From positions 42,501 to 106,500 of the forward strand of contig NZ_JASHIU010000007.1 in NCBI RefSeq assembly GCF_030733545.1: a DNA stretch of 64,000 nucleotides. Reading direction: 5' to 3'. This DNA is from Oceanicaulis sp. MMSF_3324 (GTDB lineage Bacteria; Pseudomonadota; Alphaproteobacteria; Caulobacterales; Maricaulaceae). This document shows, piece after piece, positions 50,388 to 58,530 of this stretch. The notes beneath the pieces were generated by a model. That model worked only from the letters and a program-made list of their open reading frames with translations, had not been told where the DNA came from and did no database searches. Both the position numbers and the translations under genes were made by a program. Position 1 is the stretch's first letter. Each line of letters begins with the position of its first letter.

Positions 50388-50463
50388 GCCCGGGTAGCTC
50401 AGTTGGTAGAGCAGCGGATTGAAAATCCGCGTGTCGGTGGTTCGAATCCGCCCCCGGGCACCA
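50388..50463 (+). tRNA. tRNA-Phe (GAA)
   Basis: 76 bases with acceptor GCCCGGG/CCCGGGC, D-loop AGTTGGTAGAGC, anticodon loop TTGAAAA (anticodon GAA), T-arm TCGGTGG/TTCGAAT/CCGCC and encoded CCA (50461-50463). Confidence 0.97.
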
Positions 50464-50670: not shown

Positions 50671-51084
50671 ATGCAATCGCACAGATCATCAAGATCAGGG
50701 CTGACGGCTCTGATTGCGTGTGCGCTCATGGGCTCTGTGGTCGCCTGTTCGCCCACGGCCGGTTCGTCCGTGATCGAAGCCTCGGACTCTGAACGCGTGG
50801 ATCGCAGCAATTACATCGTGACCCTGATGCGGACCGGGGCGGCGCCCCAGACGGCCGAAGCGGCGGCCGAGGCCCGCAGGGAGCTGGAGGCCGAGCGCGA
50901 TGAGGCCCTTCAGGCGGTGTTCGGCGCCCAAGGGCCCAGGCCCGGCGCCAGCTTCGTCTCCGCCTACGCCTTTGAAATTCGATTGACGGCGGAAGAGGCG
51001 GCCCGGCTGGCGCGCCATTCAGCTGTTGTTCACGTGCAAGCTGACCAGTTGCATCGTCCCATGGGCGCAGGCCCGGCAGGTTAA
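50671..51084 (+). CDS. Lipoprotein with inhibitor I9/subtilase propeptide-like domain
   Basis: 137 residues from the ATG at 50671, chosen because GGAGAG at 50661-50666 sits just upstream (a GTG at 50659 is also in frame). Lipobox VVAC with Cys26, so the mature protein is tethered to a membrane. The rest is an I9-like fold: NYIVTLMRTG first strand, helical Glu/Ala-rich segment, then FVSAYAFEIRLTAEEAARLARHSAVVHVQAD, the propeptide ending in V-x-x-V-x-x-D. It precedes a subtilase gene by 12 bases. Likely a trans-acting chaperone or inhibitor of one or both downstream proteases; this is inference. Confidence 0.75.
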   Translation: MQSHRSSRSGLTALIACALMGSVVACSPTAGSSVIEASDSERVDRSNYIVTLMRTGAAPQTAEAAAEARRELEAERDEALQAVFGAQGPRPGASFVSAYAFEIRLTAEEAARLARHSAVVHVQADQLHRPMGAGPAG

Positions 51085-51096
51085 ATCGAGATCGGT

Positions 51097-54000
51097 ATGA
51101 GCAAAACGCAGACCCTTCTGGCCGTCCTTCTGGGGGCGGGTTCCATTCTGGTTTCCTCTGGCGCGCTGCACGCGCAGCAGGGTGGATTGGAGCCATCGCA
51201 AATCGCCTTGACGGGACCCGTTTCCGACCGCGCCCTGGCGCAGCTGGGGCGAGGCGAGCGGACCTCGGTCATCGTGATCCTTGATGTGTCGGTCGACGAA
51301 ATGATCGCCGCCGCCGAAGATGACCCGGAGGGCGATTATCTCAAGGCGCGGATTGCGGATATGCGCCGTGCGGTGGTGCGTGAGGCGTTTCCCTCCGCTC
51401 TGGTGGCTCAGCGAGACGGTGCAGATCCGTCTATCGGATATGAAGCCTTTGATTTCACGCCAGGCTTTGTGGTGAACGCCAATGCCGCTGAGATTGCTGC
51501 CATGCGGCGCACGCCCGGTGTGGCCAACGTTTTTGAAAATGCCCTTTACCGTCCCATGACGGACAGCTCCATCACCCAGGTCGGGGCGCGCGCCCTCTGG
51601 GGGCAGGGCGTGACGGGCGCTGGGGTTTCTGTGGCGGTTCTGGACACCGGGGTCGAGAATGATCACCCCATGATCGGACCGGCGATTACGGCCAGCGCCT
51701 GCTTCAACACGACCAGCGAGGGTGTTTCTTCCTCGCTCTGTCCGAACGGAACAGATGAGCAGACGTCTCTGACATCCGCCGAAGCTGGCGATTCCTGCGT
51801 TGAGGACAATATCGACAGCGTCAACGGCACCGACGGCTGCTTTCATGGCACCCATGTCGCGTCGACCGTTGCCGGGCGCGTTCTGAACCTGACCAGTGGT
51901 CGCCAGATTTCCGGTGTCGCGCGGGCGGCTGATATCGTGGCGGTCAATGTCTTCAGTCGTTTCGAGCCTGAAGAGTGCGTGGACGAGGATGAAACGCCGG
52001 ATGGTGCGTGTGTGCGCTCTCCGCGCAGCGACCAGATTGAAGCGCTGGACTGGCTGTATCTGAACCGGGCTACGCTGAACCTGGCGGCTGTGAACATGAG
52101 CCTGGGCGGCTCTGAAGCCAATGCCGAGCCATGCCAGAACTTTGCTTATGACCGCACCATGAGCGCTCTGACGCAGGCCGGGATCGCTGTCGTGGTGGCG
52201 GCCGGCAATGACGGCTTTGCGAACGGGCTGAGCTCGCCCGCCTGCATTGAAAGCGCGATCTCCGTCGGCGCGGTCGATGACAATGATGTCGTGGCTGAAT
52301 TCTCCAACGATGCCGATTATCTCGACCTTCTGGCGCCGGGTGTCGAAATCCTGGCGGCTTACGGCTCCGAGCAGATCACGCCGGGCGCCGAGTGTCAGAA
52401 CGGCGCGGACGCCAATTCTGAAGGCTGGTGCTACTATTTCATCAACTCTGACGGCACTTCCATGGCGGCGCCCCATGTGGCGGGCGCTTTCGCCTTGCTA
52501 CGTCAGGCCTTTCCAAGCGCCAGCGTGGCCGACATGCTCACAGCGCTGAAGGTGACGGGCGAACCGGTCATGGACGCCTTCACCGACCGTGTGCACGCCC
52601 GTATCCAGATCGACGCGGCTCATGACTTCCTGAACACCGGTTCCGGCGTCGTGCGCTCTGTGTCCCTGGATTCCCTGACGCGTTATGACACACGCAATAC
52701 ATCGAGCGATGTGGCGTCCTTTCCCGGTACGACCCGGGGCTTGTCCAACGACAGTGGTCAGTCGCGGACGATCCGACTTGTCAGCAAGCCTGAATGGCTG
52801 AGCGTGGACTTCCGCGACAATGGCGGAAACTCGGTGTCTTCAACCGCATTGACGTTCGACGATACAGGCGAGCTGCGCCTGAGCATCAATGGTCAGGGGC
52901 TTGCTGACGGGTTCAATCCGGGAGAGCTGGTGCTTTCGGTTGATGGCGCGTCGACGCGGATTCGGCTGAAAGTCAGCGCTCATCTGACGACGCCCCTGGA
53001 TCCGAGCATCGCAACCGTGCGGTTCGGCCCCTTTGAGTGGGTGGGCGATGTGGACCAGTCTGCGGGCAGCATCTTCCGCATTGTGGGACTGGACACCGCC
53101 ATGCCGAGCGCGATTTCCGCCGATATCGAGCGCTGGGGCGACCGGGATGGTCAGTCGGTTTCCAACGCGTCCATCGCTTGCGATTTCACGATCCGGCCAA
53201 ACCGCTATTCGGGCAATGAATACATCATTGGCGCAGCCGATTTCGCCGATTGTCCGCGGTTTGACCGCGGTGACCTGTATCTGGATGTGCGTGTTCAGCA
53301 AGCCGACGCCGCGCAGCTGAGCATGCGACGTTTCCTGTTCAATTCATCAGGCGGGCTGACGGATGCAGCCTTTGATCCTTCGGCGGGAACGGGCGTGTCT
53401 CAATCGATGGCCGCGCGTGTCGCCGCGATTGCAGGCGCCGCGGACGAGGTGTCGCCCGAACAGCTCGCCAGTCAGGCCGATCCGCAGCTCGCAGGGGACA
53501 CGCCGCAAGCGCTGGCCCAGGCGCAATTCGGTCCCTTTGAGTGGACGTATGACGCCAATGGCGCCTTGCGCAGCGAGTTCCGTCTCGGCCCGATCCTTCA
53601 GGGCGATGAGCTTAATGTCGATGTGGCGATCGCCAACGCGTCCGAGCCTGGATATGACGGGGCGTTTTCCGATTGCGCCCTGACGATCCGGTCCAGCCGA
53701 CGCAGTGACAATGACTTCCAGATCCTGCCCGAGGACCTTGCCGATTGCGGCGCGTTCGGACGGGCGGACCTGACCTTCCGGGTTACAGCGGAGTCGGCGC
53801 GCATCAACGCTACTGATGGTGATGTGACGGGCATGCGCATGCAGCGCTTTATCCGCCAGGCCAACGGAGCGTTGACCGATTATCATGTGGATGCGGCCTC
53901 GGATGGCGGCGTTCAGCCGTCCAATCTCGGCACCGGGCAGGGACAGGTGATTGTGGGCCCGTTTGAATGGACGGGCGACAGCACGGCCGCGACGTCCAAC

Positions 54001-54723
54001 CAGTTCCGGATCGCAGGCGTCTCTAACGGCGCTGTCACCTCCATTGCGGTGGCTGTCGCAAACGCGGCGGCGGGCGATTATTCAGGCGGGTTCGCCGACT
54101 GTGCCCTGACCTTGCGTCCACAGCGCGCTGGCGCGAATGACTACCTCATTCTGAAAGAGGACCTCGCCGATTGCGGCGCATTCGGCCGGGCCGATCTGAC
54201 CTTCCGGATTCGTGCAGCCCTCACTGATATTCCAGGCCGGATCAAGGTGCGCCGGCTGGCGTTCGGGGCCCAGGGCGACATAACCGATTTCGGTTTTGAC
54301 GCCGTGGCCGGCGCTGGCCAGACGCCGAGTGCGATCTCGGGCGGCCGCGAGGAAGTCGTGTTCGGTCCCTTTGAATGGGTGGGCGATGCGCAGGCCGGAA
54401 CCCAGGCCGTCTTCCGGATCACGGGGATTGATGGCGGACTTCCCGAGACCATTGATGTGGCGATCGCCAATGCCACAGCCGGAAGTGGTCTGTTCACCGG
54501 CGCGTATACGGACTGCTCCATTACGCTCCGGCCGTCACGTGCAGGAGACAATGAGTATGTCATCGGCGCTGCGGACTTCACCGATTGCGGTAATTTCGGA
54601 CGCGGCGATCTGAGCTTCCGGATCCGCGCCGACGCGGCCATCCTGCAAGACACAGTGCGCATGCGCCGCTTTGCCGTGACGCGAACCGGCGGCTTGACCG
54701 ATTTCGGGTTCGACAACGATTAG
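51097..54723 (+). CDS. Secreted S8 subtilase with four C-terminal novel repeats, copy 1
   Basis: 1,208 residues. Signal peptide 1-27 (SILVSSGALHAQ). Pro-domain-like region about 45-150. Subtilisin domain with triad D183 (VAVLDTGVEN), H253 (GCFHGTHVAS) and S455 (SDGTSMAAPHVAG), oxyanion Asn371 (VAAGND), and extra cysteines inside the catalytic domain. A beta-sandwich linker is at about 510-640. Then come four repeats starting at residues 643, 811, 953 and 1089, each opening GPFEW and containing D-C...RP.R and DCGAFGRADLTFR, ending L-T-D-F-x-F-D. The repeats look like binding or exported-domain modules; I do not recognise them. Only 12 bases separate it from the I9-like gene. Confidence 0.92.
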   Translation: MSKTQTLLAVLLGAGSILVSSGALHAQQGGLEPSQIALTGPVSDRALAQLGRGERTSVIVILDVSVDEMIAAAEDDPEGDYLKARIADMRRAVVREAFPSALVAQRDGADPSIGYEAFDFTPGFVVNANAAEIAAMRRTPGVANVFENALYRPMTDSSITQVGARALWGQGVTGAGVSVAVLDTGVENDHPMIGPAITASACFNTTSEGVSSSLCPNGTDEQTSLTSAEAGDSCVEDNIDSVNGTDGCFHGTHVASTVAGRVLNLTSGRQISGVARAADIVAVNVFSRFEPEECVDEDETPDGACVRSPRSDQIEALDWLYLNRATLNLAAVNMSLGGSEANAEPCQNFAYDRTMSALTQAGIAVVVAAGNDGFANGLSSPACIESAISVGAVDDNDVVAEFSNDADYLDLLAPGVEILAAYGSEQITPGAECQNGADANSEGWCYYFINSDGTSMAAPHVAGAFALLRQAFPSASVADMLTALKVTGEPVMDAFTDRVHARIQIDAAHDFLNTGSGVVRSVSLDSLTRYDTRNTSSDVASFPGTTRGLSNDSGQSRTIRLVSKPEWLSVDFRDNGGNSVSSTALTFDDTGELRLSINGQGLADGFNPGELVLSVDGASTRIRLKVSAHLTTPLDPSIATVRFGPFEWVGDVDQSAGSIFRIVGLDTAMPSAISADIERWGDRDGQSVSNASIACDFTIRPNRYSGNEYIIGAADFADCPRFDRGDLYLDVRVQQADAAQLSMRRFLFNSSGGLTDAAFDPSAGTGVSQSMAARVAAIAGAADEVSPEQLASQADPQLAGDTPQALAQAQFGPFEWTYDANGALRSEFRLGPILQGDELNVDVAIANASEPGYDGAFSDCALTIRSSRRSDNDFQILPEDLADCGAFGRADLTFRVTAESARINATDGDVTGMRMQRFIRQANGALTDYHVDAASDGGVQPSNLGTGQGQVIVGPFEWTGDSTAATSNQFRIAGVSNGAVTSIAVAVANAAAGDYSGGFADCALTLRPQRAGANDYLILKEDLADCGAFGRADLTFRIRAALTDIPGRIKVRRLAFGAQGDITDFGFDAVAGAGQTPSAISGGREEVVFGPFEWVGDAQAGTQAVFRITGIDGGLPETIDVAIANATAGSGLFTGAYTDCSITLRPSRAGDNEYVIGAADFTDCGNFGRGDLSFRIRADAAILQDTVRMRRFAVTRTGGLTDFGFDND
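53023..54720 (+). repeat. Four tandem two-cysteine protein repeats in subtilase 1
   Basis: Coding repeats begin at 53023, 53527, 53953 and 54361. Common pattern: FGPFEW-x(2)D, then FRI.G, then I.VAIANA, then G-x-DCALTIRP.R, then (E/D)YLI..(E/D)DLADCGAFGRADLTF, then MRRF....GGLTDF.FD. About 115-120 residues per unit, joined by linkers of 15-50 residues. Confidence 0.9.
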
Positions 54724-54749
54724 AGCCTGCGATCCGCCTGACAAAACAT

Positions 54750-54785
54750 AACGCCCTTCGCCTCGAGGCGGAGGGCGTTTGTGTG
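54750..54785 (+). terminator. Probable terminator between the two subtilase genes
   Basis: AACGCCCT (54750-54757) pairs with AGGGCGTT (54772-54779), and CGCC (54759-54762) with GGCG (54767-54770), around a TCGA loop. The following gtttgtgtgtt is only modestly U-rich, so read-through to the next gene is possible. Confidence 0.6.
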
Positions 54786-54846
54786 TTGGAATAATTTATT
54801 AACCCTTCGATTTTCCCCCCGAACGCGTATGGTGCTCCAGAATGCA

Positions 54847-54876
54847 CCGTGAAGGTGTCTGATCGCGCCTTCACGG
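54847..54876 (+). promoter_or_regulatory. Leader hairpin upstream of subtilase 2
   Basis: CCGTGAAGG (54847-54855) pairs perfectly with CCTTCACGG (54868-54876) around a 12-base loop. The 3' arm runs into the G-rich ribosome-binding segment (54875-54881) ahead of the ATG at 54886, so folding could limit translation. Confidence 0.5.
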
Positions 54877-54885
54877 GGGGGAATA

Positions 54886-57800
54886 ATGCGCGTTTCTACG
54901 TTACTGTTCATCGCGACAATGTTGGGCAGCCAGCTCCTGGGAGCGGCGAACGCCAGTCAGTCCGAGTCTGTTCCTGCCGACTTGGAAAGCGCCATGTCCG
55001 CTCCGCTGAGCGAGCGGGCCCTGAATAGCGCGCGTTCCGGCGAGCGCATCGGTGTGATCGTGATGCTTCACGATGATCCGTATCAACGTGACCTGCGAAG
55101 CGTGCCCGATATACGCGGAGAGGCGGCTTTAGCGAGTTTTGAGGCGCGTATTGAGCAAATCATAAGCGAAGCGACGGAACCTCAGAGGTTCCTGTCATCC
55201 ACCGAAAGCGAACAATCAAATTCTGCGTCACACTATGCACAGTTTCCCTTGAGTGCTGGTTTTGCTTTGAGAGCCACACCTGCACAGATTGTGAATCTGG
55301 CAAGCCACCCCGATGTCTCGTACGTGTTCGAGGATGCCTTGAACGCACCACAACTGGATCAAACCACGCATAGAATTGGGGCGTGGCAGGCTTGGGGGCA
55401 GGGGTTCGAAGGACGGAGCAGCACAGTCGCCGTGCTCGATACGGGTGTGGACGCCTATCACGTCATGTTCCGGGATGCGATCAAAGCCAGCGCCTGCTTC
55501 AGTTCGGCTGTTGCAGGCGAAAGTGCATCCCTGTGCGAGAACGGCGAGGCCCGTCAAACCTCTTTGACCTCTGCGACCCTTGCTTTGCCTTGCCTGGACA
55601 AGGCAGCCGACCCTGAGAACGGTACGGAGGGGTGCTTTCATGGCACTCATGTCGCCAGCATAGCGGTCGGACGCAGCTTTCGTGAGCACTCCAGGGTTCA
55701 GGGCGTCGCCCCCGAGGCGAAGCTGGTCGCCGTGCAAGTGTTCTCCCGGTTCAATGAAGAGGTGTGCGCGGATTATTATCCTGGGCGTGAGGGCGAGTGC
55801 GTGCTCAGCCCGATCAGTCGTCAGATCGAAGCCCTGGAATGGCTTTATTCCGTGAAAGACGAGCTCGGTCTCACTGCTATCAATATGAGTTTGGGCGGTG
55901 GAGAGTTCGCTCAGCCCTGCATGGACGATCCCCGGCGCAGCATCATCCAGTCATTGGCGCAGGCCGGCGTTTTCACGGTTGTCGCAAGCGGGAATGACAG
56001 CTTCTCAAATGCGCTATCAGCGCCGGCCTGCATTCCGGAAGTCCTCTCTGTAGGCTCGACCGGTTCAGGCATGACACCGAGCGGTTTCTCCAATCATTCA
56101 GAGTATCTGGACTTCTATGCACCGGGGGATGCGATCACGGCTGCGGCCTTCACTGAGGCGCCCTCAGAGTCGGGAGAGTGTGCGTCTTCAACCGTCGGAG
56201 CCTATGTCGGTACCTATCCGGATATCCGCTACCTTTGCTCCCGTCTCTTGCATATGAGCGGCACGTCCATGGCCGCACCGCATCTGACGGGGGCGTTAGC
56301 GATTATTCGGGACGCCGTGCCTGAGGCTTCGTTTGATGAAATTCTGGACGCCTTGCGGTTTACGGCTCGGCGTCCGCCACGAGCCCTTGAGCATGTCCCG
56401 GCGGGCGAGATTTCCATCAACAAGGCGATTTCCTATCTGCAGGAAGGCGGCGTGATTGTCGGCGGGGTGATCCTGATCCGTCCGAGGACCTATGTCGCGC
56501 GAAATGCGTCGCATGAAAGAGACAGTTTCAATACTGAGACCTACAGGTTCTACGAAAACTATTACAGCAGCCGATCGCTGCATGTTCTGAGCCACCCTGA
56601 ATGGGTCAGTATTTCTGATGCATCGTATCCTCGGGCCGAGCATTCCGATACATTTTTTCTGGACTTGGAGAGGCCTTTGGACCTCGTGTTTTCAGTCAAC
56701 ATCCAGGAGGAATTGGCGGATGGCCTGACCGGTGTGGTGCGGTTGAGTCCGGAGCATTCCGATGAGGTGATCGAAATTCCGGTGTCTTTGAATATTGATG
56801 GCGAGCTGGACCGGATTCGAAAGGTTGTGACGGCAGGTCCCTGGAGCATGGTCGGGGATTCCGAAAATCCCGAGTCCAGCATCTTCCGGATCGTGGGACT
56901 GGATCGCTCCATGCCCCACCGGATCAATGTTGCAATCGCCGGGGCGGCCTCAGGTGACTATCAGTATGCCTTTACCGATTGCTCTCTGCCCATCCGACCC
57001 GAGCGCTATTCCGGGTCGGAGTATCTGATTATCCGCAGCGATCTCGGGGTGTGCGGTGAATTTGGTCGGGCGACACTACGCTTCCAGATATTGGCGGACC
57101 CTGAGGATGTGGACGCCGGACTGAGAATGCGCCGCTTTTTTCTGGACCGGGAGGGGGCTCTGACGGATGCCGGCTATGACCGGTTCAACAATATACAGGT
57201 GAGTGAGAGCCAGATCCGTGAGGCTGTACCTGCTTCGCTTGAGGCCACGGTGGATCAACCACAGAGCTTTGAAGACAGCCGCATTCTTGAATGGATCGGG
57301 AGTTCTTCCGTCGGCGCGATCACAGAGTATTTCGTTTATCAGGGATTGGCGGTCGATACGCGCGTTCAATACGTTCTTGTGGGCTTTTATTTCGAATCCC
57401 AACCGGGCCAATCTCCAAGTGGGTATAGACAGTGCGAATTGCCTTACATTCCGGAACGGCGACGGGGCGGGGAGTATGTTGTACGGGTTTCGGATCTAGA
57501 GGCGTATTGCGATTTTAGGGGACGAGCCGATATTTCTCTGAGCTTTGTCCTTGGGAGTGAAACTAGCCAGAGTCTTTCCCCAACTCGGGTCAGCCGGATC
57601 GTCCAGTCTCCTGATGGCGGCATCACCGATTTTTACAACTTTCGGTACGCCGGTATAGACAATCCCGCCGTCCCGACCCTTAAAACAAACAGGGAAACCG
57701 GGGAGCGCTATCTGCAGTCCACATGGGGGGTGTTCGGCTGGACAGGTGACGCCAATGCCCCGACACAGAGCGTGTTCAGGATCGCCGGCATACGAGGTGG

Positions 57801-58530
57801 CGCGCCGCGAACGATTGATGTGAGCATCGCAGGCAGTCTCAGAGGAGATTACCAAGGCGACTTTTCAGACTGTCGTCTCGATATCAATCCGGCGCGCGCG
57901 ACAGACTGGGATTACCTCATTTTCGCTGAAGATTTGGAGGTCTGCGGGGACTTCGGACGCGCAGACCTGACTTTTCGCTTCACGATGGGGCGCACAGAGG
58001 TCAGCGAGTCTTCAGGATATGGAGTCGCACCAGGGCGGGTCTATATGAGACGTCTGGCGGTTGGCGCGGAGGGTGATCTGACGAATTTTTCCTTCGATAT
58101 GTATCGTTATAGAGGGGTGAAGAGCAGGTCCACGCGGGCGGATGGACGCCTTGAAGTAACCAGTGAAGTCTTTGAATGGGTCGGTGATGTGAACCAGGGC
58201 ACTCGGAGCATTTTCCGGCTCTCGGGCGTGACCGATATCCCTGATGAAATTCATGTCGCGCTTGATCATGCGAGTGCGGAAAGCGGGCGGTATGCCGGAG
58301 AGTTCACCGATTGTGTTCTACAACCGCGGCCCGAGCGTTTGGATGGGGACGCCTACCTGATCCTGCCCCAGGATATTGCAGAATGCGGGGCCTTTGTGCG
58401 GGCTGACCTGCAGTTCCAATTTCTCTTGTTGAGCGGGAGCCACGAAGAGCGTCCGACCTTGCGGAGATTCGCCGTGACGAATACAGGCGGACTGACGGAC
58501 TTTGTGTCAGACATCTACAGGCATGACTGA
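54886..58530 (+). CDS. Secreted S8 subtilase with four C-terminal novel repeats, copy 2
   Basis: 1,214 residues, colinear with the preceding protease. Signal peptide about 1-23 (MRVSTLLFIATMLGSQLLGAANA). Triad D185 (VAVLDTGVDA), H255 (GCFHGTHVAS) and S461 (SGTSMAAPHLTG); Asn370 (VASGND). Beta-sandwich linker about 525-645. Repeats start at about residues 650, 800, 947 and 1093; the second is strongly divergent (ILEWIGSS, RQCELPYIPERR) but keeps the cysteine and the GGITDF end. Base composition is slightly lower in GC than copy 1 and the loops differ, so the pair is old or under divergent selection. Ribosome-binding site ggggggaa. Confidence 0.92.
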   Translation: MRVSTLLFIATMLGSQLLGAANASQSESVPADLESAMSAPLSERALNSARSGERIGVIVMLHDDPYQRDLRSVPDIRGEAALASFEARIEQIISEATEPQRFLSSTESEQSNSASHYAQFPLSAGFALRATPAQIVNLASHPDVSYVFEDALNAPQLDQTTHRIGAWQAWGQGFEGRSSTVAVLDTGVDAYHVMFRDAIKASACFSSAVAGESASLCENGEARQTSLTSATLALPCLDKAADPENGTEGCFHGTHVASIAVGRSFREHSRVQGVAPEAKLVAVQVFSRFNEEVCADYYPGREGECVLSPISRQIEALEWLYSVKDELGLTAINMSLGGGEFAQPCMDDPRRSIIQSLAQAGVFTVVASGNDSFSNALSAPACIPEVLSVGSTGSGMTPSGFSNHSEYLDFYAPGDAITAAAFTEAPSESGECASSTVGAYVGTYPDIRYLCSRLLHMSGTSMAAPHLTGALAIIRDAVPEASFDEILDALRFTARRPPRALEHVPAGEISINKAISYLQEGGVIVGGVILIRPRTYVARNASHERDSFNTETYRFYENYYSSRSLHVLSHPEWVSISDASYPRAEHSDTFFLDLERPLDLVFSVNIQEELADGLTGVVRLSPEHSDEVIEIPVSLNIDGELDRIRKVVTAGPWSMVGDSENPESSIFRIVGLDRSMPHRINVAIAGAASGDYQYAFTDCSLPIRPERYSGSEYLIIRSDLGVCGEFGRATLRFQILADPEDVDAGLRMRRFFLDREGALTDAGYDRFNNIQVSESQIREAVPASLEATVDQPQSFEDSRILEWIGSSSVGAITEYFVYQGLAVDTRVQYVLVGFYFESQPGQSPSGYRQCELPYIPERRRGGEYVVRVSDLEAYCDFRGRADISLSFVLGSETSQSLSPTRVSRIVQSPDGGITDFYNFRYAGIDNPAVPTLKTNRETGERYLQSTWGVFGWTGDANAPTQSVFRIAGIRGGAPRTIDVSIAGSLRGDYQGDFSDCRLDINPARATDWDYLIFAEDLEVCGDFGRADLTFRFTMGRTEVSESSGYGVAPGRVYMRRLAVGAEGDLTNFSFDMYRYRGVKSRSTRADGRLEVTSEVFEWVGDVNQGTRSIFRLSGVTDIPDEIHVALDHASAESGRYAGEFTDCVLQPRPERLDGDAYLILPQDIAECGAFVRADLQFQFLLLSGSHEERPTLRRFAVTNTGGLTDFVSDIYRHD
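56833..58527 (+). repeat. Four tandem two-cysteine protein repeats in subtilase 2
   Basis: Coding repeats begin at 56833, 57283 (degenerate), 57724 and 58162. Same module as in subtilase 1: W-x-x-G/VGD near the start, FRI.G, (D/Q)C.L..RPER, a second cysteine before FGRA(D/T)L and MRR(F/L)....(G/A)LT(D/N)F. Repeats 1, 3 and 4 keep both cysteines. Confidence 0.88.

Follow-up and report, generated by a model that had tools for sequence, protein, structure and literature searches.

Gene layout and domain architecture

The window analysed here is a stretch of 64,000 nucleotides from the genome of Oceanicaulis sp. MMSF_3324, in which three consecutive genes on the + strand encode an I9 lipoprotein (50671..51084; 137 aa) and two large proteases, subtilase 1 (51097..54723; 1,208 aa) and subtilase 2 (54886..58530; 1,214 aa). 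The preliminary description of this DNA had reported three genes in one direction, a gap of 12 bases between the I9 gene and that of subtilase 1, and proteases of these lengths, all of which our analysis confirmed. A mechanical ORF call placed the start of the I9 gene at a GTG (50659); the ATG at 50671 is preceded by GGAGAG. The terminator-like hairpin of 13 pairs that lies between the two subtilase genes (54750..54779, + strand) is notable through the length of its stem only, since such sites were no commoner in the scanned region than in shuffled sequences (5 observed against a mean of 7.5).

Both proteases contain an S8 domain above the cut-off of PF00082 (E 3.6e-36 and 3.1e-31), with the Asp/His/Ser triad and oxyanion Asn at D183/H250/N371/S455 in subtilase 1 and D185/H252/N370/S461 in subtilase 2. 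The intact triad described earlier for the second protease is thus found in both. Each protease also has a prodomain of its own, which was absent from the earlier account and is revealed by partial I9 matches, one below the cut-off (subtilase 1, residues 120-152, E 0.047) and one just above it (subtilase 2, E 3.8e-4); the prodomain of subtilase 1 aligns with the I9 lipoproteins. In subtilase 1, with boundaries set by eye, the signal peptide (~residues 1-26) and prodomain (to ~residue 153) occupy 51097..51555 and the S8 catalytic domain, defined by Pfam and the catalytic motifs, 51556..52641 (both + strand). A linker between the named domains (52642..53007, + strand) leads to the C-terminal modules; in the Maricaulis homologue this linker gave only a sub-threshold match to fn3_5 (E 0.14).

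An alignment of all eight copies established that each protease ends in four modules with two cysteines each, as had been proposed. All on the + strand, those of subtilase 1 lie at 53008..53382, 53518..53892, 53944..54306 and 54352..54720, and those of subtilase 2 at 56815..57189, 57268..57645, 57715..58104 and 58153..58527. Pairs of modules share 118-125 aligned columns and 17-53% identity, the second module of subtilase 2 being degenerate (17-24% to the other modules) with both cysteines kept.

The C-terminal module and a second type II secretion system

Across three genomes, five proteins carry the module, each in four tandem copies; one of these proteins is a non-protease with a bacterial Ig-like Pfam match above cut-off. 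Exactly two cysteines are present in all 20 modules of these proteins, 24 residues apart in all but one (25). The preliminary description had called the repeat unrecognised, and this view held: when 12 modules were scanned, the only family matches were one in Pfam (E 0.14) and two in NCBIfam (E 0.021 and 0.069), each to a single module, and the PDB yielded nothing at E<=1 by sequence. The predicted structure of module 3 of subtilase 1 (pLDDT 91.7, pTM 0.85) had no PDB match at E<=0.001 in Foldseek, the best being the basal pilin EbpB (E 0.054, TM 0.3). Known repeat domains (Fn3, PPC, CnaB, Ig) were considered and set aside, as no named family or solved fold was matched. In the C-terminal sorting domains of the T9SS and in SLH and CWB2 arrays, too, secreted proteins of unrelated kinds share one domain that serves to export or anchor them; these belong to other phyla and machines, and neither Pfam nor the PDB linked the module to any of them.

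A hidden Markov model of the eight copies matched the C-termini of a secreted acidic protein (SMP) in the same genome and in its relatives. Profile-profile comparison of the module with the SMP tail gave a probability of 99.4 (E 1.5e-21), against 0.1 for an N-terminal SMP control, and the probability was still 99.2 when SMPs of the same genus were left out. The SMP tails of the genus lack the two cysteines of the module, those of genus g9 show weaker homology (hhalign 93.5), and an HMM of the SMP C-terminus scored 10.3 bits (E 0.006) at locus L106 and found no match at L107. This homology between the module and the SMP terminal domain appears to be a new observation.

In Oceanicaulis sp. MMSF_3324 the SMP gene lies on another contig than the subtilases, near the gspE gene of a divergent type II secretion system (T2SS-2), in the order SMP-gspE-methyltransferase-gspF with a gap of 165 bases. 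Genes for a pseudopilin, GspK, a secretin and a prepilin peptidase are found within 15 kb, and the locus matches T2SSE, T2SSF, T2SSK_1st, N_methyl, Secretin and Peptidase_A24 above their Pfam cut-offs, so that GspD, GspE, GspF, GspK, pseudopilin and prepilin peptidase are all represented. Its GspE falls below the TIGR02533 cut-off, and the search for GspC, L and M candidates gave a sub-cut-off match to T2SSM_b (E 0.021). The preliminary description did not foresee this second system, the homologous single-module SMP, or the different tail of sister lineages described below.

The link between SMP and T2SS-2 was recovered from both directions. Among 21 loci picked by SMP, 13 had the second-type gspE within 4.4 kb, and the other 8 all belonged to genus g6. 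Conversely, 15 of 20 loci picked by second-type gspE had an SMP gene 85-1,339 bases upstream of it; an HMM covering the full length of other SMPs detected 14 of these (E<=4e-18), and a BLASTP match to another SMP (E 2.8e-45) revealed the one in genome G004. At four more, all of genus g6, SMP was encoded elsewhere in the genome; the last, in G016, had no SMP, and its GspE is no closer to the second type than the canonical one is (47%). With SMP found either at these loci or elsewhere, it is present in all 29 family genomes in which second-type gspE was found. The 14 genomes in which the module or SMP was found regardless of gspE (11 of 137 family genomes, plus three from a second sample covering part of the family) all fall within these 29, an overlap with a hypergeometric probability of 1.6e-11 if kinship is ignored.

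The earlier account had left the partner of the repeats as a surface, a substrate or the export machinery. The homology with the SMP C-terminus points to the export machinery of T2SS-2 and/or the surface which that system builds, rather than to a substrate.

The I9 lipoprotein and known secretion helpers

The small protein matches PF05922 over residues 47-126 above the cut-off (E 7.4e-5; 23.8 bits against 21.2). By eye it carries a lipobox, V-V-A-C, with Cys at residue 26; this cysteine is invariant in all three I9 homologues, and lipidation is predicted. The protein extends 6 residues past the position aligned to the end of the propeptide. A structural model (pLDDT 80.5) predicts a beta-alpha-beta-beta-alpha-beta fold, which together with the curated match places it in the I9 propeptide class. 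In Foldseek the model matched pro-subtilisin E (3whi) and subtilisin propeptides (3cnq_P, 1spb_P) with prob 1.00 and E 4e-3 to 8e-3, there being no match at E<=0.001; plant MORF proteins of similar fold scored in the same range, and unrelated ferredoxin-like proteins ranked close behind. The tail of the I9 lipoprotein resembles the propeptide end of its neighbour (LHRPM against LYRPM here, PARPM against PARPL in G008), a likeness that spans five residues in two of the three genomes and is absent from the Maricaulis pair.

Strong matches to a standalone I9 lipoprotein were confined to three of the 137 family genomes, and in each (here, G008 and L053) the gene is followed after 4-12 bases by that of a subtilase with the modules. 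The expected co-occurrence of the I9 gene with repeat-bearing subtilases was therefore observed in every case. Because of it, the earlier inference that the lipoprotein controls or matures the proteases is well supported; a lipoprotein resembling their propeptide probably keeps them quiet until export. Since each protease has a propeptide of its own, a second one acting in trans may be redundant.

The closest systems are compared here by description. The serine protease ASP of Aeromonas sobria is encoded next to ORF2, which is described as assisting it in trans and inhibiting it for a time, with the C-terminal end of ORF2 at the active site (PMC5638518), and we propose a similar role for the I9 lipoprotein. 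However, a cited title calls ASP propeptide-deficient, whereas subtilases 1 and 2 keep their prodomains, and ORF2 is encoded downstream of ASP, unlike the I9 gene, which is upstream and encodes a lipoprotein. The cluster was consequently not assigned to external-chaperone pairs of the ASP/ORF2 type, in which the protease lacks a propeptide. CpaB and LipB of Acinetobacter are described as membrane-associated T2SS chaperones encoded beside their cargo (PMC4713064), and the LipH foldase of Pseudomonas as a membrane-tethered helper of a single T2SS cargo enzyme (PMC13381987). The I9 gene likewise adjoins that of its protease, but its product has a lipobox (by eye) and an I9 fold in place of the N-terminal transmembrane domain reported for CpaB and LipB.

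Proposed export, docking and protection of the proteases

We propose, with about even confidence, that the subtilases are cargo matched by their tails to T2SS-2 and its surface, and that the I9 lipoprotein is a periplasmic propeptide acting in trans. The subtilases would belong to the surface programme of T2SS-2, whose genes lie at a separate place in the genome. Synthesized with a Sec signal and a propeptide each, they would fold in the periplasm and leave it folded, the modules, as four copies of the terminal domain of SMP, addressing them to T2SS-2 and, alternatively or additionally, docking them on the SMP/polysaccharide surface built by that system. The I9 lipoprotein would be a detached copy of the propeptide of this subtilase clade, lipid-tethered to a membrane and facing the periplasm, which fills the protease's active site as a second propeptide, acting as an inhibitor and possibly as a folding helper. 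A protease that sheds its own propeptide too early would thus be kept from digesting the periplasm before export. Note that 26 of the 29 genomes with T2SS-2 lack a module-bearing subtilase, and that canonical T2SS gspE is present in all three I9/subtilase genomes, so the canonical system could also be the export route.

The modules may instead serve attachment to a surface or polysaccharide only, with SMP, the proteases and the Ig-like protein exported by any T2SS, a reading that we regard as possible while leaning against it. It fits the four tandem copies (four on each protease against one on SMP), which exceed what an export signal alone would need and would provide avidity, as well as the Ig-like match of the non-protease carrier and the position of the T2SS-2 locus, judged by eye, among genes for glycosyltransferases, sulfotransferase-like proteins, an ABC-2 exporter and nucleotide-sugar functions; yet on its own it leaves the correspondence between subtilase tail and T2SS cluster type unexplained. 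We consider it rather unlikely that SMP is an S-layer subunit of the Slr4/NpdA type to which S-layer-associated proteases dock. Slr4 (PMC7821379) and NpdA (PMC10765051) are described as secreted proteins of ~52-57 kDa encoded beside a presumed dedicated gsp cluster, and SMP resembles them in size, signal peptide and gene position; SMPs are also acidic (computed pI 4.05-5.19, n=31). However, the codon adaptation of the SMP gene is ordinary, unlike that of a most abundant protein (27th percentile of 114 ORFs, with fusA and rpsL only as reference set), a search of 398 genomes with the SMP profile brought up no full-length relative from beyond the order, and the terminal domain of SMP is reused on proteases.

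That the I9 lipoprotein is a cell-surface inhibitor of immunity type, or a regulator unrelated to export, shielding the producer from released protease, seems to us unlikely, even though a lipoprotein motif with an inhibitor fold and a single I9 gene beside two proteases would suit it. In E. coli the residue at +2 after the lipoprotein cysteine directs membrane sorting, Ser or Ala leading to the outer membrane; the Ser or Ala found here would accordingly indicate the outer membrane, but since sequence does not distinguish the inner from the outer leaflet, this weighs little either way. Finally, the subtilase, the I9 gene and T2SS-2 could co-occur by chance or kinship in a few closely related genomes. 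Two of the three genomes share a genus and the hypergeometric figure ignores relatedness, but the third is a Maricaulis (I9 34% and protease 43% identical), the module HMM had no match in 12 of 14 other genomes of the same genus, and the homology of module and SMP is independent of counts. We judge this explanation very improbable.

The catalytic clade also occurs with other tails. At loci L128-L133, in sister lineages, seven subtilases of the clade (39-47% identical to subtilases 1 and 2) lie by a T2SS cluster with yet another type of gspE, the third, at most ~10 kb away, and end in a different C-terminal domain, common to five M12B-like metalloproteases at four of the six loci; the HMM of each tail matched its own set only among 898 ORFs. 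Tandem subtilases of the same cysteine-rich clade in Oceanicaulis sp. BBD 1991-10 (53% to subtilase 1) have 702-711 residues, a short, dissimilar tail that by eye looks PPC-like, and no module, and the I9 lipoprotein was not found in the ORF list of that stretch. There seems to be a natural swap, in which one catalytic chassis carries two tails for two machines, with both machines in some genomes. A broader reading, which we hold to be doubtful, would make the tail an address label matching T2SS cargo to machine in these alphaproteobacteria, with two dedicated T2SS lineages each using its own tail, one protease chassis re-tailed between them, and a lipid-anchored propeptide guarding the cargo.

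How the T2SS recognizes its cargo is a long-standing open question, and to our knowledge the field lacks a discrete, portable recognition domain, which the address label, if true, would provide. The cluster adds a domain family unnamed in Pfam, NCBIfam and the PDB, a lipoprotein form of the in-trans subtilase propeptide, and, in SMP, a candidate T2SS-built surface protein in families where a 2025 survey looking for rsaA and rsaDEF reported no S-layer genes (PMC12700997). The apparent swap of tails makes cargo recognition testable in environmental strains.

The subtilase cluster and its repeated tail

The cluster comprises, all on the plus strand, a gene for a 137-residue lipoprotein with a Pfam I9 match (50671-51084) and two genes with Pfam S8 matches, subtilase 1 (51097-54723) and subtilase 2 (54886-58530), which are the only PF00082 matches at E<=0.001 in this genome of 2,975,023 bases. 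The two proteases are 37% identical, and a hairpin of 13 pairs lies between their genes. Subtilase 1 (GC 63%, as in the window) stands at the 25th percentile of codon adaptation among 114 ORFs and subtilase 2 (GC 57%) at the first; subtilase 2 is a diverged or acquired paralogue. The module HMM found just one module-bearing subtilase in G008, a genome of the same genus. The genome is also congeneric with G005, and the catalytic domain of the G005 subtilase is the same as that of a subtilase from Oceanicaulis sp. BBD 1991-10 (labelled Maricaulaceae in the tree). A tRNA-Phe gene lies upstream of the cluster in the window (50388-50463) and in the Maricaulis locus (L053:3559-3634). With that tRNA gene common to both and other genes differing around it (in the window one for a TonB-type receptor, judged by eye), this may be a place where genes turn over.

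The alignment of the eight window modules, of about 120 residues each, has invariant C, R, D, C, R, R, G and T positions. With homologues there are 20 copies in five proteins, and all 20 have exactly two cysteines, spaced by 24 residues (25 once). A structural model built from a 12-row alignment (pLDDT 91.7, pTM 0.85) has eight strands and one helix. It found no PDB fold at E<=0.001 (best 0.054), the sequence found none in the PDB at E<=1, and Pfam and NCBIfam scans gave stray matches in single members only. To judge by the libraries searched, this domain is undescribed.

The module HMM matched 11 of 137 genomes of the family, and in 398 genomes of the phylum only our own and G040, which rules out a widespread domain at the sensitivity of that search. 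Contig searches with subtilase 1 alone gave 19 pattern matches, none confirmed, and those with four subtilases gave 102, with three loci. Four-module tails are borne by both window subtilases, by one subtilase in G008 and by one in the Maricaulis genome G115, on the contig that contains L053. Our own genome encodes a third protein with modules (L039:2710-5784, contig C10), a non-protease of 1,024 residues with a Big_13 Ig-like match and four two-cysteine modules; no gsp genes were seen in the 14 kb read around it. The remaining matches are single C-terminal modules on secreted proteins of about 460-640 residues, the acidic protein that we call SMP. Profile comparison with hhalign aligned the module to the SMP tail with 99.4% probability and to the SMP N-terminal region with 0.1%; SMPs of our own genus are without the module's cysteines.

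SMP and the second type II secretion system

The SMP gene of our own genome lies 165 bases upstream of a gspE, which is followed by a methyltransferase gene and gspF. Within 15 kb there are also genes for pseudopilin, GspK, secretin and prepilin peptidase. This gspE-2 belongs to a second, divergent type II secretion system (T2SS-2) on another contig than the window and scores about 530 bits, under the family cut-off; a canonical gspE (658 bits) is present on contig C20. Among 21 loci chosen for SMP, gspE-2 was found within 4.4 kb in 13, the other eight all being of genus g6.

The reverse test took 20 loci from the gspE list by score and frame length, 16 from genomes without a detected module and four from g6. 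In 15 of the 16, gspE was preceded by an SMP gene at a distance of 85-1,339 bases. A full-length HMM made from other SMPs identified 14 of these, the matches in L106 and L107 falling chiefly in the N-terminal part, and for the SMP of G004, whose HMM match was weak, BLASTP to another SMP (E 2.8e-45) made the identification. The remaining locus of the 16, from G016, had no SMP; its GspE is 47% identical to the second type over 402 residues, canonical GspE being equally so. In all four g6 loci SMP was elsewhere in the genome, and gspE was later looked for in three more g6 genomes. Every one of the 29 family genomes in which second-type gspE was found (29 being a lower bound) thus has an SMP, counting G008, whose SMP has an in-frame stop, and G154, with SMP pieces at contig ends. 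The 14 genomes in which SMP or the module was found regardless of gspE (the 11 of 137 by module HMM and three from a further search) all fall among these 29 (1.6e-11, kinship ignored). The GspE tree, from which a motif filter excluded the third-type rows and L111 and in which the long row of G016 is placed unsurely, has a supported branch with the second-type GspEs on one side (34 rows, 98/95).

Across the 398 genomes the SMP profile matched 79 at E<=0.01; matches beyond our own genome and G040 were dropped, all their listed places lying inside model positions 1-144, mostly the signal-peptide part. The high-expression codon bias expected for an S-layer protein was not found in our own SMP gene. 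Because of its in-frame TAG, the G008 gene (G008:C1:1067716-1069131) may be broken. The G154 pieces (C5, C32, C48, C49) lie at contig ends, and at contig starts with frames of 55-56 codons, as if the assembly had been interrupted by a number of similar or variable copies, and a tandem pair of SMP genes adjoins gspE-2 in G015 (G015:C1:2926727-2929778; L081:8661-11769).

A third gspE type and another tail

Six loci (L128-L133), reached through weak I9 matches, have a third gspE type that is 39-46% identical to the second; gsp neighbours were read in three of them, and in the other three gspE and gspF were matched only. They carry seven subtilases of 1,129-1,186 residues, with catalytic domains 39-47% identical to the window's two. 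Their last domain differs from the module and is common to five M12B-like metalloproteases in four of the six loci. In a set of 898 ORFs, drawn from the window and from 61 loci that overlap in part, the HMM of this tail found no other proteins than those 12, none of which the module HMM matched. Second- and third-type gspE occur together in G156 and G148, and the subtilases read there have the third-type tail; G154 is apparently alike, its third type judged from score only. Inside one catalytic clade, then, tail and machine go together, a pattern seen in few clusters that does not prove recognition. With 3 of 15 inner branches supported and subtilase 2 on a long branch, the tree of catalytic domains has too little resolution to order the tail changes. 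The third-type tail, an unnamed C-terminal domain, ends in about SVAVRT, and one of the metalloproteases is Mep72-like (NCBIfam, below cut-off).

The I9 lipoprotein and the proposed export route

Homologues of the I9 lipoprotein in G008 (46% identity) and Maricaulis (34%) lie 12 and 4 bases, respectively, before a module-bearing subtilase. Strong matches occur in three of the 137 family genomes (196-242 bits; next best 46). Weak ones (<=46 bits) occur in 22 further genomes, 17 of them inspected. They proved to be subtilase prodomains in G157, G035, G002, G156, G076, G078, G005, G150, G012, G148, G036 and G081, and unrelated small secreted proteins in G013, G010, G069, G103 and at a second place in G012; no ORF matched at the place in G160, and those of G154, G153, G077, G079 and G151 were judged from frame length alone (1,160-1,373). 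Since prodomains of this subtilase clade make up most of its next-best matches, the lipoprotein resembles one that has become detached. Pro-subtilisin E tops the Foldseek list of its model (pLDDT 80.5), closely followed by subtilisin propeptides and plant MORF proteins. In the alignment it extends six residues beyond the prodomain end, presumably the cleavage position by analogy with subtilisin, and its C-terminal residues resemble the propeptide end of the neighbouring subtilase in two of the three genomes. Upstream of the G008 cluster, L041:57-2954 encodes a protein of 965 residues in which numerous FYGDI/FWGDI repeats precede an S8-type-looking region (by eye).

Sec export, periplasmic folding, export of folded cargo by type II systems and inhibition by propeptides are all established for the families involved, and related cases are described in PMC4713064 and PMC5638518. 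The proteases would pass the inner membrane by Sec, fold in the periplasm and leave folded through the type II system, with the I9 fold suggesting, from what is known of its family, that the lipoprotein inhibits them. Homology to SMP suggests that the module serves as an export label or in surface docking, and both roles may apply: the four copies argue for docking, and the different tails of different machines for a label. In the open-licence literature, nothing on point was found on type II secretion in this family, tail signals of subtilases so secreted, or I9 lipoproteins with subtilases.

Six counterpoints weigh on this reading: the presence of the canonical system in addition to T2SS-2, the lack of high-expression codon bias in SMP, the missing cysteines in SMPs of our own genus, the separation of SMP from gspE-2 in g6, the rarity of the I9/protease arrangement (three genomes only), and the position of the protease genes outside the T2SS-2 locus. 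Because of them we hold the chances to be evenly balanced that the proteases are cargo of T2SS-2, or part of its surface programme, and would be guarded in trans by the I9 lipoprotein.
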